From assembly GCF_000744815.1 (NCBI RefSeq), contig NZ_JQMQ01000005.1, positions 4,472,055-4,536,054 on the forward strand: a DNA stretch of 64,000 bases, written 5' to 3'. Position 1 is the stretch's first letter; the number at the start of each line of letters is the position of its first letter. The notes below the pieces were generated by a model. That model had not been told where the DNA came from. It saw nothing but the letters and a program-made list of their open reading frames with translations, and did not search any database. This DNA comes from Phaeacidiphilus oryzae TH49. Lineage in GTDB: Bacteria; Actinomycetota; Actinomycetes; Streptomycetales; Streptomycetaceae. Shown in pieces: positions 16,010-33,077 of this stretch. The translations under genes were made by a program, and so were the position numbers.

Positions 16010-17662
16010 ATGGGCCGGACCGTTCGCGCGCCGCGCGGGAGCAAGCTCAACACCCTTGGCTGGCAGCAGGAAGCGGCCTACCGCATGCTGCAGAACAACC
16101 TCGACCCCGAGGTCGCCGAGCACCCCGAGAAGCTCGTCGTCTACGGCGGGACCGGCAAGGCCGCCCGCGACTGGCGCTCCTTCGACGCCATGCTGCGGAC
16201 CCTCCAGACGCTGAAGCAGGACGAGACGATGCTCGTCCAGTCCGGCCGCCCGGTCGGCGTCATGCAGACCCACGAGTGGGCCCCGCGGGTCCTCCTCGCC
16301 AACTCCAACCTGGTCGGCGACTGGGCCAACTGGGAGGAGTTCCGCCGCCTGGAGCAGCTCGGCCTCACCATGTACGGCCAGATGACCGCCGGGTCCTGGA
16401 TCTACATCGGCACCCAGGGCATCCTCCAGGGCACCTACGAGACCTTCGCGGCCGTCGCGGCCAAGAAGTTCGACGACACCCTGGCCGGGACCATCACCCT
16501 GACCGCCGGCCTCGGCGGGATGGGCGGCGCCCAGCCGCTCGCCGTCACCATGAACGGCGGCGTGGCGATCTGCGTCGACTGCGACCCGCGGGCCATCGAC
16601 CGCCGGATCGAGCACCGCTACCTGGACGTCAAGGCCAACGACGTCAAGCACGCGCTGCAGCTGGCCACCGAGGCCAGGGACGCCCGCAAGCCGCTCTCCA
16701 TCGGCCTGCTGGGCAACGCCGCCGAGCTGCTGCCGCAGCTCCTCGCGGACGGCGCCCCGATCGACATCGTCACCGACCAGACCTCGGCCCACGACCCGCT
16801 GTCCTACCTCCCGGTGGGCGTCGACTTCGACGACATGGCCGCCTACGCGGCCGAGAAGCCCGAGGAGTTCACCCAGCGCGCCCGCGAGTCGATGGCCAGG
16901 CACGTCGAGGCGATGGTCGGCTTCCAGGACGCCGGCGCCGAGGTCTTCGACTACGGCAACTCGATCCGCGGCGAGGCCAAGCTGGCCGGCTACGAGCGGG
17001 CCTTCGACTTCCCCGGCTTCGTCCCGGCGTACATCCGGCCGCTGTTCTGCGAGGGCAAGGGCCCGTTCCGGTGGGCCGCCCTCTCCGGCGACGCCAAGGA
17101 CATCGCCGCCACCGACAAGGCGATCCTGGACCTCTTCCCGGAGAACGAGTCGCTGGCCCGCTGGATCAAGATGGCCGGCGAGCGGGTGCACTTCCAGGGC
17201 CTGCCCTCGCGGATCTGCTGGCTGGGCTACGGCGAGCGGGACAAGGCCGGCGAGCGGTTCAACGAGATGGTCGCCGACGGCACCATCAGCGCCCCGCTGG
17301 CCATCGGCCGCGACCACCTGGACTGCGGCTCGGTCGCCTCCCCGTACCGGGAGACCGAGGCGATGCTGGACGGCTCGGACGCGATCGCCGACTGGCCGCT
17401 GCTCAACGCCATGGTGAACGTCGCCTCCGGCGCCTCCTGGGTCTCCATCCACCACGGCGGCGGGGTCGGCATGGGCCGCTCCATCCACGCCGGGCAGGTC
17501 TCGGTGGCCGACGGCACCGCGCTCGCCGGGGAGAAGCTGCGCCGGGTGCTGACCAACGACCCGGGGATGGGCGTCATCCGGCACGTGGACGCCGGCTACG
17601 AGATCGCCGACCGGGTCGCCGACGAGCGCGGGGTCCGCGTCCCCATGCGCGAGGGGGAGTAG
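16010..17662 (+). CDS. hutU: Urocanate hydratase
   Basis: The 550-aa cytoplasmic NAD-dependent enzyme converts urocanate to imidazolone propionate, the second step of histidine degradation. Length and sequence are near-textbook: '[14 protein letters not shown]', '[22 protein letters not shown]', '[20 protein letters not shown]', and the active-site Cys in '[13 protein letters not shown]'. The ATG at 16010 has GGAGAGG 7 nt upstream; the frame is open much further upstream but without homology. It is the first gene of a four-gene coupled hut operon and is followed after 5 nt by the amidohydrolase. Confidence 0.98.
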
Positions 17663-17667
17663 CACCG

Positions 17668-18918
17668 ATGACGGTTCGTCAGACGGACGGCGCCTTCGCC
17701 GACGCCCACCGGCGGATGTGGCGGGAGCTGCTGCCCGTCGGCCGGTACCAGGGCAGCGGCGGCTACCGCCGGTACGCCTGGACCGCCGCCGACGCCGAGT
17801 GCCGCGCCTGGTTCCAGGAGCAGGCCGCCGCCCGCGGACTGGCCTACGAGGTGGACCGGAACGGCAACCAGTGGGCCTGGTGGGGCGACCGCCAGGGGAC
17901 GGACGCCGTGGTCACCGGCTCCCACCTGGACTCCGTCCCGGACGGCGGGGCCTTCGACGGACCGCTCGGCGTGGTGTCCTCCTTCGCCGCCGTGGACGCC
18001 CTGCGGGAGCGCGGGGCGGCCCCGCGCCGCCCGCTGGCGATCGTCAACTTCGGGGACGAGGAGGGCGCCCGCTTCGGCGTGGCCTGCGTCGGCTCCCGGC
18101 TCGCGGCGGGCGTCCTGACGCCCGATCAGGCCGCCGAGCTGCGGGACGCGCAGGGGGTGCGGCTGCCGGACGCGATGGAGCGGGCCGGGCAGGACCCGTC
18201 CGCGATCGGGGCCGACCACGAGCGGCTGGCCCGGATCGGCGCCTTCGTCGAGCTCCACGTCGAGCAGGGCCGGTGTCTCGCCGACACCCCGCACCCCGTC
18301 GGCGTCGCCTCGGCGATCTGGCCGCACGGGCGCTGGCGGTTCGACTTCGCCGGAGAGGCCAACCACGCGGGCACCACCCGCCTGGAGGACCGCCGGGACC
18401 CGATGCTGACCTACGCCAACACCGTGCTGGCCGCCCGCAAGAAGGCCCGGCTGGCCGGCGCCCTGGCCACCTTCGGCAAGGTGGCCGTGGAGCCCAACGG
18501 GGTCAACGCGATCCCGTCCATGGTGCGCGGCTGGCTGGACTCCCGGGCCGCCGACGAGGCCACCCTGGACGCCCTGGTCGCCGAGATCGAGAAGGCGGCC
18601 GGCGAGCGGGCCGAGCGGGACGGGGTCGGGCTGGCCGTCACCCGGGAGTCGTACACCCCGGTGGTCGACTTCGATCTGGGGCTGCGCGACCGGGTGGGCT
18701 CGATCCTCAAGGAGAGCACGGGAATCGGCGTCCCGGTGCTGCCGACGGGTGCGGGACACGACGCGGGAATCCTCTCCTCGGCCGTGCCGACCGCCATGCT
18801 GTTCGTACGCAACCCCACGGGGGTCTCGCACTCACCGAGCGAGTTCGCCGAGGAGGAGGACTGCGTGGCAGGAACCGCCGCACTCGCCGAGGTACTGGAG
18901 TCGCTCGCATGCCGGTGA
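17668..18918 (+). CDS. M20-family Zn-dependent amidohydrolase (allantoate/N-carbamoyl amidohydrolase-like), probable hut N-formylglutamate hydrolase
   Basis: The 416-aa enzyme is a di-zinc M20 amidohydrolase: 'TGSHLDSVPDGGAFDGPLGV' carries the metal His/Asp, 'NFGDEEGARFG' the catalytic Glu pair, and 'VELHVEQG', 'AGEANHAGTT' and 'LPTGAGHDAGIL' complete the family set. Such proteins are usually called allantoate amidohydrolase. Here the gene lies inside the hut operon, between hutU and hutF (overlapping hutF by 10 nt), and no HutG is present. I infer that it removes formate from N-formylglutamate. The RBS overlaps the end of hutU. Confidence 0.85.
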   Translation: MTVRQTDGAFADAHRRMWRELLPVGRYQGSGGYRRYAWTAADAECRAWFQEQAAARGLAYEVDRNGNQWAWWGDRQGTDAVVTGSHLDSVPDGGAFDGPLGVVSSFAAVDALRERGAAPRRPLAIVNFGDEEGARFGVACVGSRLAAGVLTPDQAAELRDAQGVRLPDAMERAGQDPSAIGADHERLARIGAFVELHVEQGRCLADTPHPVGVASAIWPHGRWRFDFAGEANHAGTTRLEDRRDPMLTYANTVLAARKKARLAGALATFGKVAVEPNGVNAIPSMVRGWLDSRAADEATLDALVAEIEKAAGERAERDGVGLAVTRESYTPVVDFDLGLRDRVGSILKESTGIGVPVLPTGAGHDAGILSSAVPTAMLFVRNPTGVSHSPSEFAEEEDCVAGTAALAEVLESLACR

Positions 18919-20261
18919 ATGACGTGACCCGCTACTGGGCCCCGTACGCCTGGATCGACCCGACGGTCGAGGAGGACGTGCTGATCGAGGTGGGGGCGGA
19001 CGGCCGGATCGCCGCCGTCACCCCGGACAGCGGGCCGGCCCCGGCCGGCGCCACCGTCCTCACCGGCTTCGCCCTCCCCGGGCTGGCCAACGCCCACTCG
19101 CACGCCTTCCACCGCGCGCTGCGCAGCAGCGTGCAGGTGGGTAGCGGGACGTTCTGGACCTGGCGGGAGGTGATGTACCGGACCTCGGCCGCGCTGGACC
19201 CCGAGCTCTACCTGGAGCTGGCCACCGCCGCGTACGCCGAGATGGCGCTGGCCGGGATCACCGCGGTGGGCGAGTTCCACTACCTCCACCACGCCCCCGG
19301 CGGCGTCCGCTACGAGGACCCGAACGCCATGGGCGAGGCGCTGATCGAGGCCGCCCGGCGGGCCGGGATCCGGATCACCCTGCTGGACACCTGCTATCTC
19401 TCGGCCGGCTTCGGCGCCGAGCCGGACCACCACCAGCTGCGGTTCTCCGACGGCACGGCGGATGCCTGGGCCGAGCGGGCCTCCGGGCTGAAGGAGCACC
19501 CGCACGCCCGGATCGGCGCCGCCGTCCACTCCGTACGGGCCGTCCCGTCGGACCAGTTGGCGACCGTCGCCCGGTGGGCGGAGGAGCGGCTGGCGCCGCT
19601 GCACGTCCACCTCTCCGAGCAGACCGCGGAGAACGACGCCTGCCAGGCCGCCCACGGCCGCACCCCCACCCGGCTGCTCGCCGACCACGGGGTGCTCGGC
19701 CCGCGCACCTCGGCCGTCCACGCCACCCACCTCACGGAGGAGGACGTCCGGTTGCTCTCCGGCTCCTCGACGGTGGTCTGCATGTGCCCGACCACCGAGC
19801 GGGACCTCGCCGACGGCATCGGGCCGGCGCGGGAGCTCACCAAGGCCGGCTCGCCGATGTCGCTGGGCAGCGACAGCCACGCCGTGGTCGACCTCTTCGA
19901 GGAGGCCCGGGCGGTCGAGCTGGACGAGCGGCTGAGGACCCGTCAGCGCGGCCACTGGACGGCGGCGGCTCTGCTCCGGGCGGCGACCGAGGACGGCCAC
20001 GCCTCGCTGGGCTGGCCGGAGGCCGGGCGGCTGGCGGCCGGGGCGCTCGCCGACTTCTGCACGGTGGACCTGGAGACCGTGCGCACGGCCGGCCCGCCGG
20101 CCCGGCTGGCCGCCGAGACCGCGGTCTTCTCGGCCACCGCGGCGGACGTCCGGGACGTGGTGGTCGGCGGTCGGATCGTGGTCCGCGACGGCGAGCACCA
20201 GCTCGTTCCGGGAGTGGCGGGGGCGCTGCGGCGCGCGATCGAGAAGGTGGGAGACCGTTGA
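18909..20261 (+). CDS. hutF: Formimidoylglutamate deiminase
   Basis: The 450-aa amidohydrolase-superfamily enzyme deaminates N-formimino-L-glutamate to N-formyl-L-glutamate plus ammonia. The metal-binding '[13 protein letters not shown]' (about residues 58-70), '[11 protein letters not shown]', 'VHATHL', '[13 protein letters not shown]' and '[17 protein letters not shown]' are present. The ATG overlaps the upstream gene by 10 nt, and its stop overlaps hutI by 4 nt, so translation is coupled. Its presence shows that this strain uses the deiminase (five-step) route rather than direct formiminoglutamase. Confidence 0.93.
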
Positions 20262-21433
20262 GCAGCACTCTCATCACCGGCATCGGCTCGCTGGTCACCA
20301 ACGACCCCGAGGCGGAGGGCGGCGACGGCGGCCCGCTCGGGCTGCTGACGGACGCCGCCGTGGTGCTGGACGGGGAGCGGATCGCCTGGGTCGGCGCCTC
20401 CGCCGACGCCCCGCCGGCCGACACGCGGGTCGACGCCGAGGGCCGGGCCGGGCTGCCCGGCTTCGTCGACTCCCACTCCCACCTGGTCTTCGCCGGGGAC
20501 CGGACGGCCGAGTTCAACGCCCGGATGTCCGGGCAGCCGTACCGGGCCGGGGGCATCCGGACCACGGTGGCGGCCACCCGGGCGGCCACCGACGAGGAGC
20601 TGGACGCCAACGTCCGGCGGTACGTCGCCGAGGCGCTGCGGCAGGGCACCACCGTCCTGGAGTGCAAGTCCGGCTACGGGCTGAACGTCGAGGACGAGGA
20701 GCGGTCGCTGCGGATCGCCGGCCGGCACGCGGACGAGACCACCTTCCTGGGCGCGCACATCGTCCCGCCGGACTACGCCGACGACCCGGCCGGATACGTG
20801 GACCTGGTCACCGGCCCGATGCTGGACGCCTGCGCCCCGCACGCCCGCTGGGTGGACGTCTTCTGCGAACGGGGCGCCTTCGACGGCGACCAGGCCCGGG
20901 CGATCCTGAGCGCGGGAGCGAAGCGGGGGCTGGGCGTGCGGGTGCACGCCAACCAGCTGGGCGAGGGGCCGGGCGTGCGGCTCGCGGTGGAGCTGGGCGC
21001 GGCCTCGGCCGACCACTGCACCCACCTCACGGACGCCGACGTGGACGCGCTGGCCTCCTCCTCGACGGTGGCCACCCTGCTGCCGGGGGCGGAGTTCTCG
21101 ACGCGCAGTCAGTACCCGTCCGGGCGGCGGCTGCTGGACGCGGGCGCGACGGTCGCCCTCTCGCCGGACTGCAACCCCGGGTCCAGCTTCACCAGTTCGA
21201 TGGCCTTCTGCGTGGCGCTGGCCGTCCGCGAGATGGGGATGACCCCGGACGAGGCGGTCTGGTCCGCGACGGCCGGCGGCGCGCGGGCGCTGCGCCGTAC
21301 GGACGTGGGAGTGCTGCGGCCCGGAGCGCGAGCGGACCTCCAGCTGCTGGACGCCCCCTCGCACGTCCATCTGTCGTACCGGCCGGGGGTCCCGCTCACC
21401 TCGGCGGTCTGGCGCGCGGGCGTCGCAGCGTGA
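20258..21433 (+). CDS. hutI: Imidazolonepropionase
   Basis: The 391-aa zinc enzyme hydrolyses 4-imidazolone-5-propanoate to N-formimino-glutamate. '[18 protein letters not shown]' carries the HxH metal ligands, '[12 protein letters not shown]' and 'HANQLGEG' are substrate and metal motifs, and '[10 protein letters not shown]' carries the conserved Asp. The start is TTG at 20258, inside the hutF stop (TTGA), with GGGAG about 6 nt upstream. It is the last gene of the operon. No hutH lies in the window, so histidine ammonia-lyase must be encoded elsewhere. Confidence 0.95.
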
Positions 21434-21462
21434 TCACGAACCACCCGCAGAGCCTTTTCCTC

Positions 21463-21468
21463 TAAGCT
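21463..21468 (+). promoter_or_regulatory. Putative -10 hexamer of a leaderless glycosidase promoter
   Basis: TAAGCT lies 7 nt before the ATG at 21476. Confidence 0.45.
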
Positions 21469-22699: not shown

Positions 22700-22728
22700 G
22701 CGCCCCGGTGAGCCCGAAGGGCGAATCA

Positions 22729-22855
22729 GGGGCGCGGGGAACTGCGCGGCCCGCCGCTTACGGTCCGCACCCGGCAACGGCGCTTGGGCTGCAACCCGGA
22801 CTCCGTACCCGGCTGCGGCGCCGTAGTGGGCCGGGCGCGCAGTTCCCCGCGCCCC
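22729..22855. repeat. Hairpin repeat element A
   Basis: A 20-bp terminal arm GGGGCGCGGGGAACTGCGCG at 22729-22748 is mirrored at 22836-22855. The core contains 'cacccggcaacggc' and 'ttgggctgcaacccgg', which recur in element C. It lies between convergent genes and may act as a bidirectional terminator or a MITE-like element. Confidence 0.75.
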
Positions 22856-22985
22856 TTACTTGCGCCTGCGGCGCTGCGCCAGCGGCTCGCGCCAGAGGCG
22901 AGCGGAGTTCGGGTTGCAACCCGGTGGCCGTACCCGACTGGGGCGGGATGTCGCGCCCCCGGCGCAGCGCCGCAGGCGCAAGTAG

Positions 22986-23113
22986 GGGGCGCGGGGAACT
23001 GCGCGGCCAGCCATGCACTCTGCCGCACTCGGCAGCGGAGTTCGGGTTGCAACCCGGTGGCCGTTGCCGGGTGCGGCGCCGTTGCGCGCGGGCCGCGCAG
23101 TTCCCCGCGCCCC
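22986..23113. repeat. Hairpin repeat element B
   Basis: It has the same 20-bp arm as A at 22986-23005, mirrored at 23094-23113. The element abuts the stop codon of the following minus-strand glycosyltransferase, whose last codons (RRRRK) fall in the repeat flank. Confidence 0.75.
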
Positions 23114-24268
23114 TTACTTGCGCCTTCGGCGCTGCGCTCGGGGCTGCGCAAGCAGCTCGCGCCAGAGGTGGAGGTGGTGGGTGGTGAGGTCGGGCCACGC
23201 GTAGTCGCGCTCGGCCGCTTCGCGGCCCGCCGCGCCGAGGCGGTCGGACAACTCCGCGTCGCGTAGCAGCAGGCGGCACGCCTCGGCGAGGGCCGCCGGC
23301 TCGCCCGGAGGGACCAGCAGGCCCGTCTCGCCCTCCGTGACGACGGAGGGAATGCCGCCCACCCTGGAGCCGACCACCGGCGTTCCGCAGGCCATCGCCT
23401 CGATCAGGGCCATGCCGAAGGACTCCGCCTCGGTGCGGGAGGGGAGCACCAACGCGGCTGCCCCGCGTACCGCCTCCACCAGCGCGCGGCCGGACAGCTC
23501 GCCGTCCGCGTCCACCCGCCCTGCCACGCCCAGTGCGCCCGCCAGCCGCAGGTGGTCGGCGAGCGCGTCGCCGCCGCCGACCAGCCGGAGCCGGGCCTCC
23601 GGGACCTCCTCCGCCAGCTCGGCGAAGGCCCGGACCAGCACGTCGACGCCCTTCCAGGCCGAGGAGCGGTCGATCCGCCCGACGTAGAGGAGGGTGGGCG
23701 GCCGGCGCGAGGGCGGCGGGCCGGGCGTGAAGACCGCCGTGTCCACCCCGGGGGTGATCCGCACGCTCCCCGGGACGGCGTCCGCGAGCGACACCGGGGA
23801 GACCGAGACCAGCGCGTCGCAGCGGGCGAAGACCCGTGGCAGGACGTGACGTTCGTAGGCGCCGATCAGCAGGTCGGCGGCCGCGCTGCCCTTGGCCATG
23901 GAGCCCGCGTGGTAGGTGAGGAGGGTCCGGCGCCGCCGCCCGGAGAGCGCCACGGCGAGGTCGCCGAGACCCGGCACGGGGGCGTGCGCGGTGACCAGCC
24001 GCACGTCCAGCCGCCGCAGCCAGTACCGGAGTTGGAGCGGCCACAGCGGGCTGAGCGGGGTGTTGGAGACCCGCAGCCAGGCGCCCAGGCGCAGCACCCG
24101 CACCCCGTCCTCCACGGTGTCCGTGGTCCGCAGGCCCCGCCGGGTGGTGATCACCACCGGCCGCAGGTCCGGCTGCCCGGCCGCCGCTCGCGCGAGTCTG
24201 GCGGCATACCGCTCCACCCCGCCGACCTGCGGCGGGTAGTAGGGGGCGACCACGGCCACCGTCCTCAT
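23114..24268 (-). CDS. Glycosyltransferase family 4
   Basis: The 384-aa GT-B enzyme is of the GT4 retaining type, acting at the cytoplasmic membrane face. The N-terminal 'VVAPYYPPQVGGVERYAARLARA' is the acceptor-domain start; the C-terminal 'LLYVGRIDRSSAWKGVDVLVRAF' and 'PSRTEAESFGMALIEAMACGTPVVGS' (EX7E motif) form the nucleotide-sugar site. It is the last gene of the seven-gene operon; its ATG overlaps the flippase stop by 4 nt. The C-terminal QPRAQRRRRK is encoded at the edge of hairpin element B and may be acquired. Confidence 0.92.
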   Translation of the reverse strand: MRTVAVVAPYYPPQVGGVERYAARLARAAAGQPDLRPVVITTRRGLRTTDTVEDGVRVLRLGAWLRVSNTPLSPLWPLQLRYWLRRLDVRLVTAHAPVPGLGDLAVALSGRRRRTLLTYHAGSMAKGSAAADLLIGAYERHVLPRVFARCDALVSVSPVSLADAVPGSVRITPGVDTAVFTPGPPPSRRPPTLLYVGRIDRSSAWKGVDVLVRAFAELAEEVPEARLRLVGGGDALADHLRLAGALGVAGRVDADGELSGRALVEAVRGAAALVLPSRTEAESFGMALIEAMACGTPVVGSRVGGIPSVVTEGETGLLVPPGEPAALAEACRLLLRDAELSDRLGAAGREAAERDYAWPDLTTHHLHLWRELLAQPRAQRRRRK

Positions 24269-25551
24269 CCGCGCACCTCCCGCCGCCGGTACCGCCAGAC
24301 CGCCAGCGCGGCCAGCGCGGTCAGCCCGCAGGCCAGGTTGCCCGCGCCCCACGCCCAGCCCAGCCAGACCAGCCCGCGCGGCGCCCAGGCGTAGGCCAGC
24401 CCCACCGCGACCACCGCGTACAGCGCCTGGCTCAGCATCAGCGCGGTCATCAGCCCGGCCAGCCGCAGCACCACCGACGCCCAGTAGTTCAGCGCCACCG
24501 CCAGCGAGCCCGCCGCCAGTACCACCAGCAGCGTCCGGGCGTGCTCCTGGTAGCCGCCGCCGAACAGCCGGAGCAGCAGTCCGCTCGCCGCCGCGACCAC
24601 CGCGGCGGCCGCGAACTGCGCCCCGGCGGTGATCGCCGCCGAGCGGCGCAGCAGCGCGCCGAACCGGGCCCCGTCGTAGGAGACCTCGGCGAAGAGGGCG
24701 TCGCCCACGGCGTGCGACACCGAGTTGACCAGGGCCGCGATCTGGAAGGCGACGAAGTAGTAGCCGGCCTCCGCCGAGCCCAGCCGCTGCAGCACGATCA
24801 GCGGCAGCGCCAGCAGCGGGATCAGGTCGAGGAGGCTGGAGACGTAGTTGGCGGCGGAGAAGCCGAGTTGCTCGCGCAGCCGGGTGCCCCGGCCGCGCAC
24901 CCGGGGCCGGTAGCCGAGCCGCCGGTGCATCAGCAGCAGCGAGGCGGCCGCCGCCACCGCGTAGCCGCCGCCGGAGGCGCCGACGATGCCGAGCGCGCCC
25001 ATCCCGGTCAGCGCGATCGGCAGGGCCAGCTTGGCCAGGCCCTGGACCAGCCCGTCGACCAGCACGTTGTACTGGGGGACGCGGGCGCCGGTGAACACCG
25101 AGTCGGTGAGGAGGTTGCCGCCCGCGCACACGCAGGCCAGCACGAACAGCGCCAGCCCCCAGGGGTGGTGGCGGACGAAGAGCAGCCGTGGCGCGTACAG
25201 CGGCAGGCCCGCCAGGTAGACCGTGCCGGCCACGGCCGCGAGGCCGCCGACCACCAGCAGGGACCGGGTGATCTGGCCGTTCCTGGCCTCGCCCGGCGCG
25301 GGGAACCGGATCAGGGTGGTGTTCAGTCCGAGGAGGCTCAGATACGAGATCCAGGAGACCGCCGAGATCAGCGAGGTGGCCAGGCCCACCTGGGAGGGGC
25401 TGTAGTAGCGGGCGACCACCACCCAGAAGAGGAAGCCGAGCGCGGCGGTGGTCCCCGAGGAGGCCAGCAGCAGGAAGGAGTTGCGGTAGACCTGCTCCGG
25501 GGGGCGGGCGTGCCGGCCGTGGGCGCGGCCGGTGCGGAGGCCCCTAACCAT
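24265..25551 (-). CDS. Wzx-type polysaccharide/oligosaccharide flippase
   Basis: The 428-aa membrane protein has 12 or more predicted helices and belongs to the MOP/PST superfamily ('YRNSFLLLASSGTTAALGFLFWVVVARYYSPSQVGLATSLISA' is the typical first part). It would move a lipid-linked glycan across the membrane. It overlaps the flanking glycosyltransferases by 4 and 8 nt, so the cluster makes an exported glycan. Confidence 0.9.
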   Translation of the reverse strand: MVRGLRTGRAHGRHARPPEQVYRNSFLLLASSGTTAALGFLFWVVVARYYSPSQVGLATSLISAVSWISYLSLLGLNTTLIRFPAPGEARNGQITRSLLVVGGLAAVAGTVYLAGLPLYAPRLLFVRHHPWGLALFVLACVCAGGNLLTDSVFTGARVPQYNVLVDGLVQGLAKLALPIALTGMGALGIVGASGGGYAVAAAASLLLMHRRLGYRPRVRGRGTRLREQLGFSAANYVSSLLDLIPLLALPLIVLQRLGSAEAGYYFVAFQIAALVNSVSHAVGDALFAEVSYDGARFGALLRRSAAITAGAQFAAAAVVAAASGLLLRLFGGGYQEHARTLLVVLAAGSLAVALNYWASVVLRLAGLMTALMLSQALYAVVAVGLAYAWAPRGLVWLGWAWGAGNLACGLTALAALAVWRYRRREVRG

Positions 25552-26779
25552 CGCCCGGCACCGCGACCGCCACCGCTCCCGCGCCCGCGGCCTCCCGGTA
25601 GCGCTCCAGCAGCGCCTCCGCGTGCTCCTCCCAGCTGAAGGCGGTCTCGGCGTAGCGGCGGGAGTACCCGCCCATCCGGGCCCGCAGGCCGGCGTCCCCC
25701 GCCAGCCGGTCCAGCTCGTCCCGGAAGGCCTCCGGGGTCCGCGGCAGCAGGCTGATCGAGGAGCGGTCCAGCCGGTACGGCGCGTAGCCGGGGTCGTCGG
25801 TGGTCGCCACCGGCAGTCCGGAGGCCATCGCCTCCTGCACGCTCAGCGGGAAGCCCTCGGAGACGGAAGGCAGGGCGAAGACGTCGCAGGCCCGGTAGGC
25901 CTCGGCGAGCCGCTCCTGCGGCAGCGCGCCCAGGCAGTGGACGCCGGGCAGCCGGGCGGCGGCCGCGAGGGCCTCCCGGTCGCCGCCCCCGGCGAGGACC
26001 AGGTCCCAGCCCGCACCCGGCTTCTGACGGGCCGTCAGCAGAAGGTCGAAGCCCTTCTTGGGCACCAGCCGCCCGGCGAAGAGCACCAGCGGCCGCCCGT
26101 CGGCGGGCAGCCCGAGCGCCGTCCGGGCGGCGTCCCGTTCGGCGGGGCCGGCGGCCGGGCGGAAGCGCTCGGTGTCGACGCCGTTGGGCAGGTGCCGCAG
26201 CCGGTCCGCCCGGGCCCGGTAGCCCTCGGCGAACCGGGCCACCTCGGCGTTCAGGGTGAAGACGGTGCGGGCCCGGCGCAGCAGCGCGCGCCCCGCCGTC
26301 CCGTACACGGCCCGCTGCACCGCGACCACGGCGGCGGAGGGGTGGTCGACCAGCCCGACGTGCTGGGTGGTCAGCTGCGGGGTGCGGGTGAGCGCGGCGG
26401 CGAGACCGGCCGCCCAGGAGGTGACGTAGAGGCAGTCGTGGATGTGCACCACGTCCGCCCAGCGGGCCCAGCGGACGGCGGCGGTCAGCACCGAAGGCGC
26501 CAGCACCGGGAACGGCACCCCGGTACGGCGCTCGACGCCGTTCCAGGCGGGCACCCGGACCACTCTCGGTGCGGCTCCCGCCGCCTCCGCGTCCGCGCCC
26601 GTCCCCGGCCACGCCGTTCCCGGCTCGCCCGAGGCGCCGCCGGGAGCGCTGGTCAGCACCGTCACCTCGGCTCCGCGCCGGGTCAGCAGCGCCGCCTCGC
26701 GGCTCACCACCGCCTCTATCCCGCCCAGATGCGGCGGGTAGTAGTGGCTCACGAGGAGGATCCGGGGCCGGCCGTTCAC
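25544..26779 (-). CDS. Glycosyltransferase family 4
   Basis: The 411-aa GT-B enzyme starts 'ILLVSHYYPPHLGGIEAVVSREAALL' and has the C-terminal 'VLFAGRLVPKKGFDLLL' and 'FALPSVSEGFPLSVQEAMASGLPVATTDD' (EX7E). It is most like teichuronic/exopolysaccharide GT4 enzymes. The GTG start at 26779 overlaps the upstream stop (GTGA); the frame stays open far upstream antisense to other genes, but that part is not coding. A gap-like insertion rich in Gly/Ala (about residues 45-65) is unusual. Confidence 0.92.
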   Translation of the reverse strand: MNGRPRILLVSHYYPPHLGGIEAVVSREAALLTRRGAEVTVLTSAPGGASGEPGTAWPGTGADAEAAGAAPRVVRVPAWNGVERRTGVPFPVLAPSVLTAAVRWARWADVVHIHDCLYVTSWAAGLAAALTRTPQLTTQHVGLVDHPSAAVVAVQRAVYGTAGRALLRRARTVFTLNAEVARFAEGYRARADRLRHLPNGVDTERFRPAAGPAERDAARTALGLPADGRPLVLFAGRLVPKKGFDLLLTARQKPGAGWDLVLAGGGDREALAAAARLPGVHCLGALPQERLAEAYRACDVFALPSVSEGFPLSVQEAMASGLPVATTDDPGYAPYRLDRSSISLLPRTPEAFRDELDRLAGDAGLRARMGGYSRRYAETAFSWEEHAEALLERYREAAGAGAVAVAVPGDG

Positions 26780-29220
26780 TGGTAGATCTCTGCTCCCTCG
26801 CTGCTGTAGACCTTGTTCTTGGTCGCGTCCAGCAGCCCGGCCGGCAGGGTGAAGGTGATCAGGTCGCCCTGGTAGAAGACGCTGATCCGGCCCTGCTGGA
26901 CGGCGGTCCTGCCGAGGAGCACGGTGGTGTCCTCGCGCAGCAGCGTCGGGTAGAGCCCGCCCACCGCGGGCCCGGTGATCAGCGTCTGCAGCCGGGCGAA
27001 GGTGAACTCGTCGGTCTGCAGCAGCCTCGGCGAGGTGGCCGAGGTCCGCTGGGAGAGCCAGTACGCAGCCTCCCGCTCGGCCAGGTCGGGGTAGTAGACG
27101 TCGTAGTACTGCCCGGAGTCGCTCAGCTGCAGCTGCGCCGGGTAGCCGCCGAGGGCCTTGGGCAGCACCCCGGTGAGGTCCAGGAAGAGCGCCGCCACCA
27201 GCACGCAGACCAGCGGAGCGGTCCGCCGCCGCGCCCAGCGGAGCGCCCAGAGGGTGGCCGCGGCCATGAACGGCGCGAAGAAGAACAGGCCCTGCTGGAA
27301 GGCCCGCAGCAGGCTGTAGTCCACCGAGAGCTGGGGCAGCAGCACCAGCAGGCCGATCAGTCCGGCGGCGCCGACCGCCAGCGCGATCTGGTCGCGGGTC
27401 GGCCGGAAGGCGCTGCGTCTGCCGCGCACCGCGACCACGAAGCCGACCAGCAGCAGCAGTTGGAGGAGTGCGGCGGCGCCCGTGCGCAGCACGCCGTTCA
27501 GCCCGGTGACGCTCAGCCCGGTCGAGCCGAGCAGCCGGCCGAGGGCGGTCAGCGGCTGGTTCGGCGTGCGCACGGCCGTCACCCGCACGGCGTCGGCCGT
27601 CTTCAGCGGCACCAGGTCCGCGGACGGCGGCAGCGCCGCCCGCTCGCGCAGGGTCTCCGCGCGGTACTCGGCGAGACGCTGGGCGGGGCTGGTGGAACCG
27701 CCGCCGAAGAGGCTGTACGAGGTGTCCGAGGAGCCGGAATGCGCCTGCCCGGGGTGGAGCAGCTCGTGCACCGCCCCGGTGACCGTCTGCCGCAGCTCGC
27801 CGCTGGTGTGGGTGACCGGCCCGGCCCACACCAGGGCCAGCACCGCCGGCAGCAGCACCAGCCACCAGGTGACCAGCGGGGGCCCGCCGGCCCTGGCCGG
27901 GCGCTCCCGGCGCCGGACGCGGTCCTTGAGGCGCAGCAGGAGGTGGACGGCGAAGGCGATCCCGAAGGTCGCCACCACCACGTAGGTCGTCGAGTAGTGG
28001 GACAGCACCATGCCGACCATCAGCACGGCGGTCACCGCGCGGCGGGCCCGCAGCGGCCGCCCGGAGTCGGTCAGCATCACCGCGACCCCGCCCAGCAGCA
28101 GGAACGCCACCTCCTGGCGGCCGAGGAAGGTCATGTCGGTGAAGAAGGTCGGGAAGACGACGAAGTAGACCGCCGACAGCAGCGCCACCATCCGCGGGGC
28201 CACGTTGTGCACCGAGCGGAAGACCTGGACCGGGACCAGCGCGAAGAGCAGCGGCAGTACGGCCTTGAAGACGTAGACGTCCGGGATGCCGGTCATCCGC
28301 ACCACGCTCACCGGCAGGATGGTGATGCTCAGGCAGGCGTTGTACGCGTTGGGGTAGCTGTGGACGTCCCAGAGCGAGCCGCCCAGGGTGAGGCGGAAGA
28401 ACTCGTACTCCCACTGGATGTCGTGGCCGGTGACGTACCACCCGCGCAGCGAGTTGAGCAGCAGCAGCGCCGCCGAGGCCAGGAACAGCCCGGTCTCCAG
28501 CACCGGTATGGACCACCGCCGCCGGCGGGCGAGCAGCAGCACCAGCAGCGCGCCCACGGCGACCAGGGCGACCGTGCTGACCGTCCCGCCCAGGCCGTTG
28601 TTGAGCCGCACCGGACCGGCCACGGAGAGCACCAGCGCCGCCGCCCCGAGGCCGAGGACAGCCGCGAGCCCGGGCCGGCGGCGGTGGCGACGGCGACGGC
28701 CCGGGCCGCCGGTCCGCTGCTCGCGGGGCTCCTCGGGGACGAAGGTGCCGACGGCGATCAGGACGAGGGCGGTGGCGCCGGCGAGCGGGATCCGGGTGAG
28801 CGGATGGTGCTGGCCGAGAAGCGGCAGCACGGTGTTGACGGCGAGGGCGACCAGGATATCGGTGACGACCGCGAGACCGGCGGCCACCAGCAGGTTGCCG
28901 TCCCTGGAGGACACCACCCGGGAGGCCGTCCCGCGCCACACCGCCACCGGCGCGCCGAACATCAGCCAGAGTCCGGCCAGGGTCAGCGGCACCCCCGGAA
29001 CGCCGGGGAGCATCTCCACCGCGCAGGCCAGGGCGATGCTCAGCAGCACCGCGTTGCGCCCCTGGAGGAACGACGGCAGCCGGCGGCCGGGCGGTCGCCC
29101 GGACGGCTGTGCTGTCGGCTGTTCGGTCGCCTGTGCGGTCCGCTGCTCGGCTGCGTCCTCGATCGGCTGCTCCGCCGCCTGCTCGGCCGCCTGCTCGGCG
29201 GCCCGGTGGTCGGCGCTCAC
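26776..29220 (-). CDS. Large multi-span membrane protein, probable GT-C-type glycosyltransferase or polymerase
   Basis: The 814-aa protein has a low-complexity Ala/Glu/Gln N-terminus (about 1-45), 14-16 predicted helices, and a C-terminal extracellular soluble part (about 690-814). An acidic-aromatic loop after helix 6 ('RGWYVTGHDIQWEYEFFRLTL') resembles the first-loop catalytic region of GT-C enzymes; the overall layout recalls archaeal/bacterial DUF2206-type proteins found in glycan clusters. Embedded between two GT4 genes with 4-nt overlaps, it could polymerise or transfer the glycan from a polyprenyl carrier. Family assignment is tentative. Confidence 0.75.
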   Translation of the reverse strand: MSADHRAAEQAAEQAAEQPIEDAAEQRTAQATEQPTAQPSGRPPGRRLPSFLQGRNAVLLSIALACAVEMLPGVPGVPLTLAGLWLMFGAPVAVWRGTASRVVSSRDGNLLVAAGLAVVTDILVALAVNTVLPLLGQHHPLTRIPLAGATALVLIAVGTFVPEEPREQRTGGPGRRRRHRRRPGLAAVLGLGAAALVLSVAGPVRLNNGLGGTVSTVALVAVGALLVLLLARRRRWSIPVLETGLFLASAALLLLNSLRGWYVTGHDIQWEYEFFRLTLGGSLWDVHSYPNAYNACLSITILPVSVVRMTGIPDVYVFKAVLPLLFALVPVQVFRSVHNVAPRMVALLSAVYFVVFPTFFTDMTFLGRQEVAFLLLGGVAVMLTDSGRPLRARRAVTAVLMVGMVLSHYSTTYVVVATFGIAFAVHLLLRLKDRVRRRERPARAGGPPLVTWWLVLLPAVLALVWAGPVTHTSGELRQTVTGAVHELLHPGQAHSGSSDTSYSLFGGGSTSPAQRLAEYRAETLRERAALPPSADLVPLKTADAVRVTAVRTPNQPLTALGRLLGSTGLSVTGLNGVLRTGAAALLQLLLLVGFVVAVRGRRSAFRPTRDQIALAVGAAGLIGLLVLLPQLSVDYSLLRAFQQGLFFFAPFMAAATLWALRWARRRTAPLVCVLVAALFLDLTGVLPKALGGYPAQLQLSDSGQYYDVYYPDLAEREAAYWLSQRTSATSPRLLQTDEFTFARLQTLITGPAVGGLYPTLLREDTTVLLGRTAVQQGRISVFYQGDLITFTLPAGLLDATKNKVYSSEGAEIYQ

Positions 29221-30386
29221 AGTCCGGCCTCCGCGTACACCCGTTCCACCTGCTCGGCGACCGACGCCCAGCTGCGGGCGCGTGCCGCCCGGGCGCCCGC
29301 GGCGGCCAGCCGCCACCGCAGCCCGGGGTCACCGGCCAGCCGGTCGATCCCCGCCGCCAGTGCGGCCGGGTCCGGGGGAACCAGCAGGCCTACGCCGTCC
29401 AGGAGTTCGCGGTTCCCCGGCACGTCCGTGGCCAGCACGGGCAGCGCGGAGGCCATCGCCTCCAGGGCGGCCAGCGGCATCCCCTCCCGGTCGGAGGGCA
29501 GCACGAAGGCGTCCGAGGAGGCGTAGGCGGCGACCAGCTCCTCGCCGTGGAGCTCGCCGGCGAAGCGGACGGCCTCGCCGCCGAGCCCCAACCGGGCGGC
29601 CCGCGCCTCCAGCGCGCCGCGCAGCTCGCCGTCGCCGACGATCCGCAGCCGGGCCGGCCGGCTCAGCCGGCTCATCGCGTCCAGCAGCCGCCCCACGTTC
29701 TTCTGGACGCCGAGGCGCCCGACGAAGAGCAGCCGCAGCGGCCGCCCGTCCGCCTCCGGCGGCGTCTCGGGCACGGGACGGAACCAGGCCTCCCCGACCC
29801 CGTTCGGCACCACGAAGACCCGCTCCCGGGGCAGCCGGTACTCGGTGCGGAGGAAGCCGGCCTGGTCGGGGGTCAGCGCGATCACGGCCGCCGCCGAGCG
29901 CAGCACCCGGCCCAGGACCTGCCGCTTGTAGAGCGGCAGCAGCCGGCCCAGCGGGCCGGAGGCGTCCACGTCGAGGTGGAAGTGGACCACGTAGCGCCGG
30001 CCGCGGAGCCGGGCGCTGAGCGCGACCAGCTCCGGCAGCAGGGCGTGGGCGCAGTGGAGGTGGAGCACGGCGTTCCGGGGGACGCGCAGCAGGGCGAGGG
30101 CGAGGCCGGGCGAGACGGGGGTGTGCGCCAACTCCGCCGCGCGGTAGCGGCGTACGGAGAGCGAGGGCCCGCCGTCGGCGGCAGCGTCCGGGCCGGAGGC
30201 CGGGCTTCCGGCCGGGCCTGCGGCCGCGCTTCCGTCCGGGCCTGAGGCCCGTTCCGGGCCGAGGGCCGTGGTCAGCACCCGCACCTCGTGCCGCTCGGCG
30301 AGCCGCTCGGAGAGGTTCGCCGCCACGCGCTCCAGCCCGCCCAGCCGGGGCGGGTAGTACGGGGAGACCTGAACGATGGTGCGCAT
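29217..30386 (-). CDS. Glycosyltransferase family 4
   Basis: The 389-aa GT-B enzyme has 'TIVQVSPYYPPRLGGLERVAANLSERL', 'LLFVGRLGVQKNVGRLLDAM' and 'FVLPSDREGMPLAALEAMASALPVLATDVPGN' (EX7E). A Pro/Gly/Ala-rich insertion lies at about 45-75. Its stop (GTGA) overlaps the following 814-aa gene, and its ATG overlaps the upstream stop by one base (TGATG). It is the first of three GT4 paralogues in the operon; the three are divergent in sequence, so they probably use different sugars. Confidence 0.92.
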   Translation of the reverse strand: MRTIVQVSPYYPPRLGGLERVAANLSERLAERHEVRVLTTALGPERASGPDGSAAAGPAGSPASGPDAAADGGPSLSVRRYRAAELAHTPVSPGLALALLRVPRNAVLHLHCAHALLPELVALSARLRGRRYVVHFHLDVDASGPLGRLLPLYKRQVLGRVLRSAAAVIALTPDQAGFLRTEYRLPRERVFVVPNGVGEAWFRPVPETPPEADGRPLRLLFVGRLGVQKNVGRLLDAMSRLSRPARLRIVGDGELRGALEARAARLGLGGEAVRFAGELHGEELVAAYASSDAFVLPSDREGMPLAALEAMASALPVLATDVPGNRELLDGVGLLVPPDPAALAAGIDRLAGDPGLRWRLAAAGARAARARSWASVAEQVERVYAEAGL

Positions 30387-30943
30387 CAACTGCCCGCGGC
30401 CGTCCGGGTGGTGCCGAAGCTGTAGCGCAGGCGCTGCGGGTGGCCGAGGAGGGCGACCCGCACGTCGGCGACCGAGCCGGCGGAGCGCAGGCGGGTGACC
30501 GACCGGGTGGCGACCCCGTCCCGGGGGTGGAGGACGAGGGTGGTGGCGGCGAGGGCCTTCCCGCCGTCCGAGTCGAGGGTGACGCGGAGCCGGTAGGTGC
30601 GGACGCCGGTGCCGTGGGCGTTCAGCGAGACCGGGACGATCACGGTGTCCCCGTCGAAGACCGGGCTGGTGGTGAAGTAGAGCTCGGTGAAGGACTGCGG
30701 GATCCGGGTGAAGGACTGCAGCATCACGGTGCGCACCGGCTGCAGCGTCCAGAGCAGTACCCCGGCCGCGAGCAGCACGGCCAGGCCGGCCACGCCGGCG
30801 GAGACCCTGGCGCCGACCCGCGCCCCGGCCCCGAAGGCCCGCTCCCGCCGCGCCTTGTGCCGAGCGCCCGTGGGCCGGGCTTCGCCGCCCGGGTCGTCCT
30901 GCTCGGGGTCCTCGCTCGCCGCCTCGGTCCGCCTCTCGGTCAT
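30386..30943 (-). CDS. Single-span membrane protein of the glycan operon
   Basis: The 185-aa product has a charged N-terminal cytoplasmic region (about 1-52), one membrane helix (about 53-73) and a beta-rich extracellular domain ('DGDTVIVPVSLNAHGTGVRTYRLRVTLDSDGG'). No enzymatic motif is visible. It overlaps the GT2 gene by 4 nt (ATGA) and the next GT4 gene by 1 nt. It could be an accessory or chain-length factor for the assembly complex, but it is unlike Wzz. Function unknown. Confidence 0.75.
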   Translation of the reverse strand: MTERRTEAASEDPEQDDPGGEARPTGARHKARRERAFGAGARVGARVSAGVAGLAVLLAAGVLLWTLQPVRTVMLQSFTRIPQSFTELYFTTSPVFDGDTVIVPVSLNAHGTGVRTYRLRVTLDSDGGKALAATTLVLHPRDGVATRSVTRLRSAGSVADVRVALLGHPQRLRYSFGTTRTAAGS

Positions 30944-31698
30944 ACCGCCTCGTACTGCTGCTCGACCGGCAGTTCCGGCTCCGCAGCATAGACGCCCAGG
31001 CCGAAGCGGTGGGACAGCAGTTGGCGCAGGTTGGCGAGACCGTCCGGCAGCGCGTCCAGCTTCACCTCGCCGCCCCGGATGCGGTATTCGATCGGGACCT
31101 CCAGGAAGCGGTAGCCGGCCGTGGTGGCGGCGTTCTTTATCTCCTGGGAGAAGGCCATCCCGGTGGAGCGGACCCGGATCCCCTGCCAGACGTGGCTGCG
31201 CAGAAGCCACATCCCGGACTGCGAGTCCCGCAGGCCGTTGCGGAAGAGGAGGCGGCTCAGGGCGCTGAGCGCGTGGTTGGCGACCCGGTGGGTGGTCCGC
31301 ATCGCCGAGCGGTTGGCGTGCTGCAACCGGTTGGTGGTCAGGAACTCGACGTCCTGCTCGACGAGGGTGCTCAGCAGGCCGGGGAGGGCGTCGAAGGGGT
31401 AGGTGCAGTCGGCGTCGCCGGTGGCGAACACCTCGCCGCAGGCGGCGCGGAACCCGGCCAGATAGGCGTTGCCGTAGCCGCGTTCGGGCTGGGCGACGAT
31501 CCGGGCGCCCAGGTCCCGGGCGACCTCCGCGGTCCCGTCGGTGGAGCCGTTGTCCACCACGATCACCTCGGTGTCCCAGCCGGCGTCGGCGAGTTCGAGG
31601 TACGGCACGGAACCGAGGACGGTGGGGATGTTGGGCGCCTCGTTGAGCGCAGGGATGACTATGGAAAGTGTGCCCACCGAAGAATCCCCCGCTGTCAA
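30940..31698 (-). CDS. Glycosyltransferase family 2, dolichol-phosphate-mannose-synthase-like
   Basis: The 252-aa GT-A enzyme has 'LSIVIPALNEAPNIPTVL', 'VIVVDNGSTDGTAEVA' and the metal-binding 'GDADCTYPFDALP' (DxD). It lacks C-terminal membrane helices, like Dpm1-type polyprenyl-phosphate sugar synthases, and may charge the lipid carrier for the GT-C-like enzyme of the operon. It is the first gene of the operon. The start is a TTG at 31698 or a GTG at 31677; the GTG has GGGGGA about 8 nt upstream and is equally plausible. Confidence 0.9.
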   Translation of the reverse strand: MTAGDSSVGTLSIVIPALNEAPNIPTVLGSVPYLELADAGWDTEVIVVDNGSTDGTAEVARDLGARIVAQPERGYGNAYLAGFRAACGEVFATGDADCTYPFDALPGLLSTLVEQDVEFLTTNRLQHANRSAMRTTHRVANHALSALSRLLFRNGLRDSQSGMWLLRSHVWQGIRVRSTGMAFSQEIKNAATTAGYRFLEVPIEYRIRGGEVKLDALPDGLANLRQLLSHRFGLGVYAAEPELPVEQQYEAV

Positions 31699-31913: not shown

Positions 31914-33077
31914 TCAGCCCACCAGCCAGGAGGCCACCGGGTTGGCCTTCAGCCCCGCGCCGCCCTGCATCAGGGTCGCCACCTGAGAGGGGGTCAGCGA
32001 CTGGTTCCAGACCTGGATATGGCCGATGACCCCGGCCCAGGCGTCGTTCCAGATGCCGTGCTTGCGGTCCCGGCCGAGCTGCAGCGGGCCCGGACCGGCC
32101 CAGATGCCGGGCACCTTGGCGGCGCCGGCCGGCTTGCCGTTCACATACAGCCCGATGGTGTGCTTGGCCGCGTCGTACGTTCCGGTGAGCAGCGCCCAGG
32201 TGTTGGTGGTCGGCGCTCCGGCGGGGGCGTGGACGGCGTGGCTGGTGCTGTCCGCGCCGCCCTTCCCGGACTGCACGCGGAAGGACCAGTACTGGTGGCC
32301 GCCGGAGTCCTCGCGGCCGAGGTCGAACAGGTAGGAGGCGCCGTCGCCCTCGCTGATCGCCGAACGCGAGCCGCCGGGCTGCTGGTTGTAGACCCAGGCC
32401 GAGACGGTGAAGCTCTTGGTGACGTCGACGATCTGGTCGGCCGACTGGGCATAGGAGATGCCGTCGTTCTTCAGGCTGATCACATAGCCGTTGGGGACCT
32501 TGCTGACCTGCGCGTCCGGGCCCATCGCCAGCGGGGCGTCCCCGGAGCTGTCGCGCAGCAGGTTCGGCTGGCCGGGGACGGTCGGGGAGTCGTTCGGCGC
32601 CCCCGTGGGCGAGGCCGAGGTGCGGGCCGAGGCGGACGGGGTCGGCCCGGCGTGCGGATGCTTCGCCCCGCCGCCGCCGAGGCCGTTCACCCCCAGCCAG
32701 CCGGCGCCGGCGCCCAACAGGCAGGCCACGCCGATGATCGAGGCCCAGCGGAGCCGCCGCCGACGGCGTACCCGGGACTCGTTCTCCTCGGCGAGCGCGG
32801 CCCAGTCCGGCTCGGAGGACGCCGGCTGCGCCGGGGCGAACGTCTGCTGCGGGAGGGGCGCCCACTGCGCGGGCACGGGCTGCGGCGCCTGCGGTGACTG
32901 CGGCGCCTGCGGGGGGAGTGCGGACGGCGGAGGGAGCTCGAACTCCTCGTCCTCGGCGGGTATCTGCTGCGCCTGCGGCTGCCCGGCGGCGCGGGGATCG
33001 AGTGGTGCTGGCCGGAGGCGCGTCGGCTCCTGGCCCGGGGACTCGGCCCTGTCCGGGCCCTCCGTACCGTCATTCAT
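31914..33077 (-). CDS. Membrane-anchored LamG (concanavalin-like) domain protein
   Basis: The 387-aa protein has a Pro/Gln-rich cytoplasmic N-terminus (about 1-105), a basic RRRRRLR stop-transfer, one membrane helix (about 110-130), a Ser/Thr/Pro linker (about 140-170), and a LamG-like jelly-roll domain (about 195-380; 'FTVSAWVYNQQPGG', 'NTWALLTGTYDAAKHTIGLYVNGK', 'GVIGHIQVWNQSLTPSQV'). LamG domains bind glycans or proteins at the cell surface. The topology (long cytosolic tail, extracellular lectin) could couple surface glycan to signalling. It lies just upstream of the glycan operon, separated by a hairpin. Confidence 0.8.
   Translation of the reverse strand: MNDGTEGPDRAESPGQEPTRLRPAPLDPRAAGQPQAQQIPAEDEEFELPPPSALPPQAPQSPQAPQPVPAQWAPLPQQTFAPAQPASSEPDWAALAEENESRVRRRRRLRWASIIGVACLLGAGAGWLGVNGLGGGGAKHPHAGPTPSASARTSASPTGAPNDSPTVPGQPNLLRDSSGDAPLAMGPDAQVSKVPNGYVISLKNDGISYAQSADQIVDVTKSFTVSAWVYNQQPGGSRSAISEGDGASYLFDLGREDSGGHQYWSFRVQSGKGGADSTSHAVHAPAGAPTTNTWALLTGTYDAAKHTIGLYVNGKPAGAAKVPGIWAGPGPLQLGRDRKHGIWNDAWAGVIGHIQVWNQSLTPSQVATLMQGGAGLKANPVASWLVG

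Follow-up and report, generated by a model that had tools for sequence, protein, structure and literature searches.

A conserved seven-gene cluster of Phaeacidiphilus oryzae encoding a predicted GT-C-fold DUF2206 protein: a putative surface-glycan assembly operon and sister variant of the imp cluster

How might lipid-linked glycans be exported and joined by a gene set that contains a Wzx-type flippase and has a different kind of enzyme in the place where a Wzy polymerase is expected? This question is raised by a seven-gene block in Phaeacidiphilus oryzae TH49, located in a stretch of 64,000 nucleotides (nt) of contig NZ_JQMQ01000005.1 (hereafter the window, whose positions are used as coordinates). 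The block runs on the minus strand from 31677 (or 31698) down to 23114 and encodes, in this order, a family 2 glycosyltransferase (GT2), a single-span protein of 185 amino acids (aa), a family 4 glycosyltransferase (GT4a), an 814-aa multi-span protein of the DUF2206 family, GT4b, a Wzx flippase and GT4c, with successive overlaps of 4, 1, 4, 4, 8 and 4 nt. It is moderately probable that this operon assembles an exopolysaccharide or surface glycan by the steps proposed below, as a sister variant of the imp cluster of Actinoplanes missouriensis; a surface sugar polymer is probably made, exported and trimmed by its products. Its unusual part is a predicted GT-C_A-fold enzyme in the position of Wzy, accompanied by a small partner modeled as a β-sandwich. 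The members of the block and its two neighbors are as follows.

30940..31677, minus strand: GT2 glycosyltransferase; start GTG 31677 (245 aa) preferred, TTG 31698 possible; PF00535, 82 bits
30386..30943, minus strand: 185-aa single-span protein; predicted extracytoplasmic β-sandwich; without Pfam match; family in 72 of 81 loci
29217..30386, minus strand: GT4a glycosyltransferase; PF13692, 118 bits, and PF00534, 107 bits
26776..29220, minus strand: 814-aa multi-span protein, DUF2206, predicted GT-C fold; DUF2206 at 38.3 bits plus structure model
25544..26779, minus strand: GT4b glycosyltransferase; PF00534, 94 bits
24265..25551, minus strand: Wzx/MOP-type flippase; PF01943, 34.0 bits, and PF13440, 31.9 bits, both over cut-off
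23114..24268, minus strand: GT4c glycosyltransferase; PF00534, 128 bits
21476..22699, plus strand: PslG-like glycoside hydrolase, converging on the operon; PslG structure 4zn2, 1.7e-28
31914..33077, minus strand: LamG (Laminin_G_3) protein, upstream of the operon on the same strand; PF13385, 84 bits

An initial annotation of this DNA had described seven genes overlapping by 1–8 nt, and this layout is confirmed, except that GT2 may rather start at 31677. This start is favored over 31698 because several aligned homologs have a methionine at or beside that place and because GGGGGA lies upstream. Translational coupling of the seven genes is suggested by the overlaps alone. The Pfam matches bear out the annotated glycan-assembly set of GT2, three GT4s and a Wzx-type flippase. 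Scanning the nine window proteins listed above against Pfam revealed no Wzy, Wzz or initiating phosphoglycosyltransferase family, Wzz having been searched for at the locus only, in agreement with what had been annotated. The convergent hydrolase gene had been overlooked. Since the block recurs in other genera, other families and other phyla, a chance overlap of unrelated genes is ruled out.

The 814-aa protein, annotated as GT-C-like, matches DUF2206 (PF09971) at 38.3 bits in a protein scan, over the curated cut-off of 35.6, and its gene reaches 21.7 bits, under the cut-off, in a six-frame search; five distant relatives score 69–171 bits. Its AlphaFold model is confident, with a mean predicted local distance difference test (pLDDT) of 92.2 and a predicted template modeling score (pTM) of 0.91, and a Foldseek search with it returned 17 matches at E up to 0.001, all of which are GT-C enzymes or complexes containing one, including AftA, oligosaccharyltransferase (OST), ArnT, PglB, AglB and DPY19. 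A second aligner gave Z-scores of 13–18 to STT3, PglB, AglB, PMT, DPY19, AftA and ArnT. The top structural matches are STT3-containing chains, closely followed by PglB and AglB; the yeast OST chain 8agc_A aligns with Z 17.9 over 440 residues from residue 232, so that approximately 230 N-terminal residues are extra to STT3. By prediction, the protein has the GT-C fold, as the annotation had supposed, and it is proposed to be a putative polymerase or transferase. A Protein Data Bank (PDB) sequence search found no solved relative, the single match at E 0.22 being chance-like, and a PDB search with the profile of the protein gave no match up to E 1. In an alignment extending to 20% identity, R259, D267, E271, W284, R368, H408, Y409, W465, Y635 and R639 are invariant in all 75 rows. 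GT-C enzymes bear an acidic loop after the first core helix, and D267 and E271 lie after this helix. The WWDYG motif, which defines the oligosaccharyltransferases (GT66), is present in 0 of the 75 rows. Among 14 control genomes searched in six frames, DUF2206 matches were found only in Methanosarcina acetivorans, under the cut-off.

The 185-aa protein was modeled (pLDDT 81.7) as one membrane helix at residues 41–65 followed by a β-sandwich of eight strands across residues 85–180, which appears Ig-like as judged by eye. A fold search with this model reached E 1.2e-3 at best, so that no solved structure matched at the 0.001 level. Many relatives of the protein contain an FTELYF-like motif. When 10 relatives were scanned, L115 alone exceeded the cut-off of DUF1616 (PF07760), with 43.4 bits, while six more matched at E <0.001, one at 0.09, and two (L034 and L069) not at all. 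The similarity of these distant relatives to DUF1616 is to its C-terminal part, and in L103 the score for PF18994 is the higher one. Neither DUF1616 nor any other Pfam family is matched by the window protein. In the 14 control genomes, DUF1616 matches occur in M. acetivorans and Haloferax volcanii.

GT2 has as its best NCBIfam model NF041391 (dolichyl-phosphate hexose transferase), at 114 bits against a cut-off of 375, and it scores 101 bits against the AglJ model, whose cut-off is 325. Its best solved relative is the dolichyl-phosphate mannose (Dol-P-Man) synthase 5mlz (1.4e-13), and the solved-structure search also revealed a resemblance to undecaprenyl-phosphate formyl-arabinose transferase. 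D49 and the DAD motif at 95–97 (numbering from 31698) are kept in 48 of 48 aligned sequences; these counts, like those for the hydrolase below, cover sequences above 150 bits by phmmer and are hence biased toward conservation. GT2 has no hydrophobic segment. The window genome encodes two further GT2s at 35–37% identity.

The hydrolase is most similar among solved structures to PslG of Pseudomonas aeruginosa (4zn2, 1.7e-28), the runner-up being a β-xylosidase at 6e-12, and it matches Cellulase (50 bits) and Glyco_hydro_39 (33 bits) in Pfam. It has an N-terminal hydrophobic segment at residues 10–28. E186 is kept in 65 of 65 aligned sequences and E308 in 64 of 65, and both align with two glutamates of PslG, which we take to be its catalytic residues. 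As in the Psl cluster of P. aeruginosa, of which only the hydrolase was compared, an endoglycosidase is encoded with glycan-assembly genes; PslG is described as an endo-β-glucanase in the available text of PMC11912335.

Conservation was investigated in a local sample of 61 genomes around and including the window's own, 15 of which (own included) encode a DUF2206 protein. The loci of the other 14 keep the gene order of the window, with exceptions: GT4a was not found in L035 and L036, nor GT2 in L036 and L037 (the latter starts at a contig end); in Catenulispora-type loci one GT4 sits past the hydrolase, and some members are separated by extra genes. The convergent hydrolase is present in 13 of these 14 loci, the remaining one, L038, lying on a short contig whose end comes right behind Wzx. 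Close GT2 relatives (E <1e-80) occur in 14 of the 15 DUF2206-positive genomes and in 0 of the 46 negative ones, and the hydrolase (E up to 1e-30) occurs in 15 of 15 and 2 of 46, respectively, although hydrolase and DUF2206 gene are on different contigs in G050. The co-occurrence of the hydrolase gives a Fisher p of ~2e-12 that ignores relatedness, and such p-values are inflated by the relatedness of the genomes, 9 of the 15 positives belonging to one genus (g19). One of the two hydrolase copies in negative genomes is weak and the other has two stop codons; the latter (G034:C39:48704-49879) is perhaps a remnant of a lost locus.

A wide scan of 84,980 species genomes with two short peptide patterns yielded 86 stretches with 73 loci, which are a sample only. 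Its actinomycete hits include Streptomyces, Kitasatospora, Streptacidiphilus, Actinoplanes, Amycolatopsis, Pseudonocardia, Nocardioides, Frankia and Catenulispora, and those beyond actinomycetes include Saccharibacteria, Parcubacteria, other Patescibacteria, a Ktedonobacteraceae bin, an Acidobacteriaceae bin and a Methanoperedenaceae archaeon. Fetched and scan loci, which are partly identical, were combined into a tally of 81 loci other than the window after removal of the duplicates L055, L062, L063, L066, L076 and L090; alignment A3 omits these six and L039, L041–L045, L051, L069 and L116. GT2 was found in 69 loci, the 185-aa family in 72, GT4 in 81 (by profiles that do not separate GT4 paralogs), Wzx in 73 and the hydrolase in 53, and since some loci end at contig ends, the counts of absence are upper bounds. 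The core order GT2, single-span protein, GT4, multi-span protein, GT4, Wzx is kept in 34 of the 81 loci, tolerating an optional deacetylase, X4TM (see below) or second 185-aa copy, and in 26 of these 34 the convergent hydrolase follows Wzx. Deep in the tree, in a part that is mostly Patescibacterial (29 loci), the same parts are arranged in other orders (GT2 in 21 loci, the 185-aa family in 22, Wzx in 21, the hydrolase in 15). A quickly built DUF2206 tree places the window sequence beside that of a Kitasatospora (support 87, not starred) within a starred set of 19 rows. The gene cluster is real and widely conserved, in soil actinomycetes and in other bacteria. A literature search on actinomycetes and Patescibacteria found no work on this cluster itself and turned up the paper on the imp cluster.

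Relatives of the locus contain additional genes. Polysaccharide deacetylase (23 of 81 loci) and pyruvyl transferase genes (24 of 81) lie in or near their operons (e.g., L033:12068-12817 and L033:4302-5579), a hint that the polymer exists in N-acetylated and pyruvylated variants; no copy of either gene was found in the window. A small membrane protein, here termed X4TM, has an HPxTLxxxLTH-like motif and occurs in 27 of 81 loci, including Patescibacteria (e.g., L096:18526-18765, L109:19804-20052 and L041:12388-12798), and its gene directly precedes Wzx in many actinomycetes; X4TM was not found in the window, and the one copy scanned had no Pfam match. A contig labeled Acidobacteriaceae (L072) contains a full actinobacterial-type locus, through either transfer or wrong binning.

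The imp cluster provides the closest view of what such genes may do. According to the available text of two reports from 2025–26, the A. missouriensis imp cluster (ImpA–ImpG, beside gimB) directs the formation of the sporangium-matrix polysaccharide and is laid out as gimB, GT4, GT4, Wzx, five-span ImpD, Alg6/Alg8-like ImpE, GT4 and GT2 (PMC12691653, PMC13390465). The claim that the operon matches no characterized pathway was thus not borne out, the imp layout being nearly the same and GT2, GT4a and Wzx having clear homologs in loci of that layout. Four Actinoplanes/Paractinoplanes genomes with a window-type locus were searched via PF01943, and 14 regions were fetched. Two of them, L159 and L162, have the imp layout, by which (rather than by the A. 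missouriensis sequence) they are called imp here; the same genomes also hold the window-type loci L061 and L087. The GT2 domain of L159 lies at residues 31–152, against 65–188 printed for ImpG (available text of PMC12691653), the imp-type genes of L159 overlap or abut, and a hydrolase-like gene converges on them. The window, L159 and L162 share the order GT2, GT4, GT-C-like protein, Wzx, GT4, to which the window adds the 185-aa gene and GT4b. L159 ImpG matches the window GT2 at 35% (2e-26), ImpF matches GT4a at 35% (4e-23) and ImpC matches Wzx at 32% (9e-18).

Both systems contain a GT2, a GT4, a GT-C-like membrane protein, Wzx and further GT4s beside a hydrolase gene. They differ in that the small partner is the five-span ImpD before Wzx in the imp cluster and a separate single-span protein after GT2 in the window, that the window has a GT4 between the GT-C protein and Wzx, that its hydrolase is PslG-like, and that the GT-C proteins match weakly. 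The A3 profile detected one strong locus in each of the four genomes plus just two weak short matches. L159 ImpD and ImpE have no Pfam match; the GimB-like protein of L159, so named by its place, has PF11790 (E 0.026) as its sole Pfam match. X4TM was considered as the N-terminal half of ImpD and rejected, the sequences looking by eye like another protein. From these comparisons, the window locus appears to be a collinear sister variant of the imp cluster, not the same cluster. In the available text on the imp mutants, every single deletion led to squashed sporangia; transmission electron microscopy was performed on ΔimpA, ΔimpD and the cluster deletion, and ΔimpD was without visible matrix; ΔimpG and the whole-cluster deletion had the mildest effects, spore release being similar to that of the wild type or slightly lower; and freed precursors or stranded carrier lipid are suggested by the authors as a possible reason for the worse outcome of partial loss (PMC12691653, PMC13390465). 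The mild phenotype of ΔimpG would fit a first step catalyzed by ImpG, since no lipid intermediate would be stranded. Hydrolysis products of four to eight sugars, as given in part of the imp literature, would fit four glycosyltransferases.

On these grounds, an assembly route can be proposed for the window locus, in which all chemical steps, the order in which the glycosyltransferases act, polymerization as opposed to transfer to another acceptor, and the monophosphate carrier are inferred. GT2 would put the first hexose on polyprenyl phosphate at the cytoplasmic side, and GT4a, GT4b and GT4c would lengthen the chain to approximately a tetrasaccharide. Wzx would flip the lipid-linked unit, and the DUF2206 GT-C protein would polymerize the units or transfer them, probably with help from the 185-aa protein through its extracytoplasmic domain. 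The PslG-like hydrolase, either secreted or anchored, would then cut the product, which the LamG protein may bind. Gene content, gene order, their conservation and the conserved catalytic residues were observed, and the GT-C fold is given by the predicted model. This route is supported by the conserved core order, the fold with its invariant polar residues in 75 of 75 rows, the proximity of GT2 to polyprenyl-phosphate sugar synthases, the existence of a genome (G044) with the locus and without PF02397, the homologies to imp genes together with the mutant phenotypes, and the deacetylase and pyruvyl transferase of relatives.

Several points weigh against this exopolysaccharide route. The Foldseek TM-scores of the 814-aa model are modest (0.25–0.47 in the 17 best rows), and GT2 resembles its nearest NCBIfam models at scores far under their cut-offs and is not a member of these families. 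In 28 of the 81 loci, some of them cut by contig ends, no hydrolase was found. With regard to the imp cluster, ImpE matches the DUF2206 family weakly (single-pair hhalign E 0.0014, probability 18%, C-terminus only), as does ImpD the 185-aa family (E 0.0017, probability 16%, single-pair, C-terminal), and the GimB-like protein of L159 gave no significant BLASTP match to the PslG-like hydrolase (E 0.78). The mild phenotype of ΔimpG could also reflect a redundant GT2. The imp authors, in the available text, assume a diphosphate carrier and a Wzx/Wzy pathway with ImpE as Wzy (PMC12691653, PMC13390465). The PF02397 initiator and the Wzy_C protein of the window genome could serve in trans, and, given the donors of GT-C_A families, the GT-C protein may add single sugars.

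It is rather unlikely that the locus belongs to an ordinary Wzx/Wzy pathway, in which the unit would be begun on a diphosphate by a PF02397 or WecA-type enzyme encoded elsewhere and the GT-C protein would play the part of Wzy, as the imp authors propose for ImpE. The window shares a MOP-family flippase with classical Wzx/Wzy systems, whereas its locus is without an initiator, Wzy_C or Wzz match. A single match each to PF02397 and PF04932 (Wzy_C) is present in the genome (E up to 0.001), 12 kb apart on contig C4; as this is another contig than that of the operon, they are assigned to another locus. PF02397 occurs in 14 of the 15 DUF2206-positive genomes, as such a pathway would need, but also in 38 of the 46 negative ones, and it was not found in G044, one draft genome that has the DUF2206 locus (PF00953, the WecA-type family, was outside this search); the conserved GT2, moreover, would need another role. 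Another explanation, considered unlikely, is a three-component decoration system, in which the polyprenyl-phosphate hexose made by GT2 would be flipped and the GT-C protein would add a single hexose to a backbone made by others, the GT4s serving that other product. Four of the five GT-C_A families tabulated in the available part of PMC10920833 use lipid-phosphate-monosaccharide donors, GT66 using lipid-diphosphate-oligosaccharides, which speaks for decoration, as do the resemblances of GT2 to Dol-P-Man synthase and undecaprenyl-phosphate formyl-arabinose transferase; a three-component system with a MATE-family flippase is also described, in literature seen in excerpt, for pentofuranoses. The known GT-C three-component systems (GtrA/GtrB/GT-C; GT136; available text of PMC11127046) have, like the window, a GT2 resembling polyprenyl-phosphate-sugar synthases, a flippase and a GT-C enzyme, but the window adds three GT4s, a MOP-type flippase, a hydrolase and the small β-sandwich partner. 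Three GT4s and a Wzx-type flippase in the same conserved overlapping block are not needed for a one-sugar decoration; there is also no GtrA family match, and GT2 lacks a hydrophobic segment.

Protein glycosylation, in which the GT-C protein would act like an oligosaccharyltransferase and attach the glycan, once flipped, to proteins at the surface (perhaps to LamG), is quite improbable. The best structural matches are indeed STT3-containing chains with PglB and AglB near, GT2 resembles archaeal AglJ, and among the 14 control genomes the DUF2206 and DUF1616 matches are confined to archaea; as in archaeal dolichyl-phosphate N-glycosylation, the GT-C protein approximates an oligosaccharyltransferase fold, that of A. 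fulgidus (Z 16.5). In contrast to the archaeal system, that of the window is bacterial, is without the WWDYG motif and has a hydrolase; the motif is missing from all rows of the alignment, LamG is present in 12 of 81 loci only, and a polysaccharide is what the PslG-like endoglycosidase suggests, as do, in relatives, the deacetylase or pyruvyl transferase. Archaeal N-glycans characterized to date derive from a dolichol monophosphate carrier, according to the available text of PMC4476749, and the model of a glycan on a lipid monophosphate was taken over from archaeal N-glycosylation for the window locus. A more far-reaching form of the polysaccharide reading, which is doubtful, would be a widespread route in archaeal fashion, in which an AglJ-like GT2 starts on polyprenyl monophosphate, Wzx exports the product, and a GT-C_A (DUF2206) protein with a DUF1616-type partner joins the units in Wzy's stead; it would be held by actinomycetes, Patescibacteria, a Ktedonobacter-type Chloroflexota bin and archaeal relatives.

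The available text of PMC10920833 assigns polysaccharide polymerases to GT-C_B or to clans that have no structural class. Should the DUF2206 protein polymerize lipid-linked units, these polymerases would come to include an enzyme of the GT-C_A type; this would provide a function for DUF2206 and a role for DUF1616-type proteins. In the literature searched, DUF2206 is unnamed and DUF1616 is named only as a glycoprotein in a list. The gene set recurs in Saccharibacteria and Parcubacteria.

Regarding the surroundings of the operon, the adjoining LamG gene that had been annotated is confirmed (PF13385; 31914–33077, minus strand); it does not overlap the operon, and its product has one hydrophobic segment at residues 112–130. 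It lies immediately upstream of GT2 in 9 of the 81 loci, and it is a partner in part of the Streptomycetaceae. A plasmid-borne origin was set aside, one partial match covering 21% of the query having been found among 72,556 plasmid records. In a scan for regulatory sites, 0 sigma-70 promoters were found against 0.2 expected, and 3 terminator-like sites against 1.4 expected. The gap between the hydrolase and GT4c (22712–23137) contains copies of a dispersed repeat, whose 20-base core GGGGCGCGGGGAACTGCGCG has 278 copies genome-wide (134 forward, 144 reverse), against 0 for the reversed control. Past the hydrolase, at 17500–21465, lie apparent histidine-degradation genes, identified by eye only as an amidohydrolase, a formiminoglutamate deiminase-like and an imidazolonepropionase-like gene.

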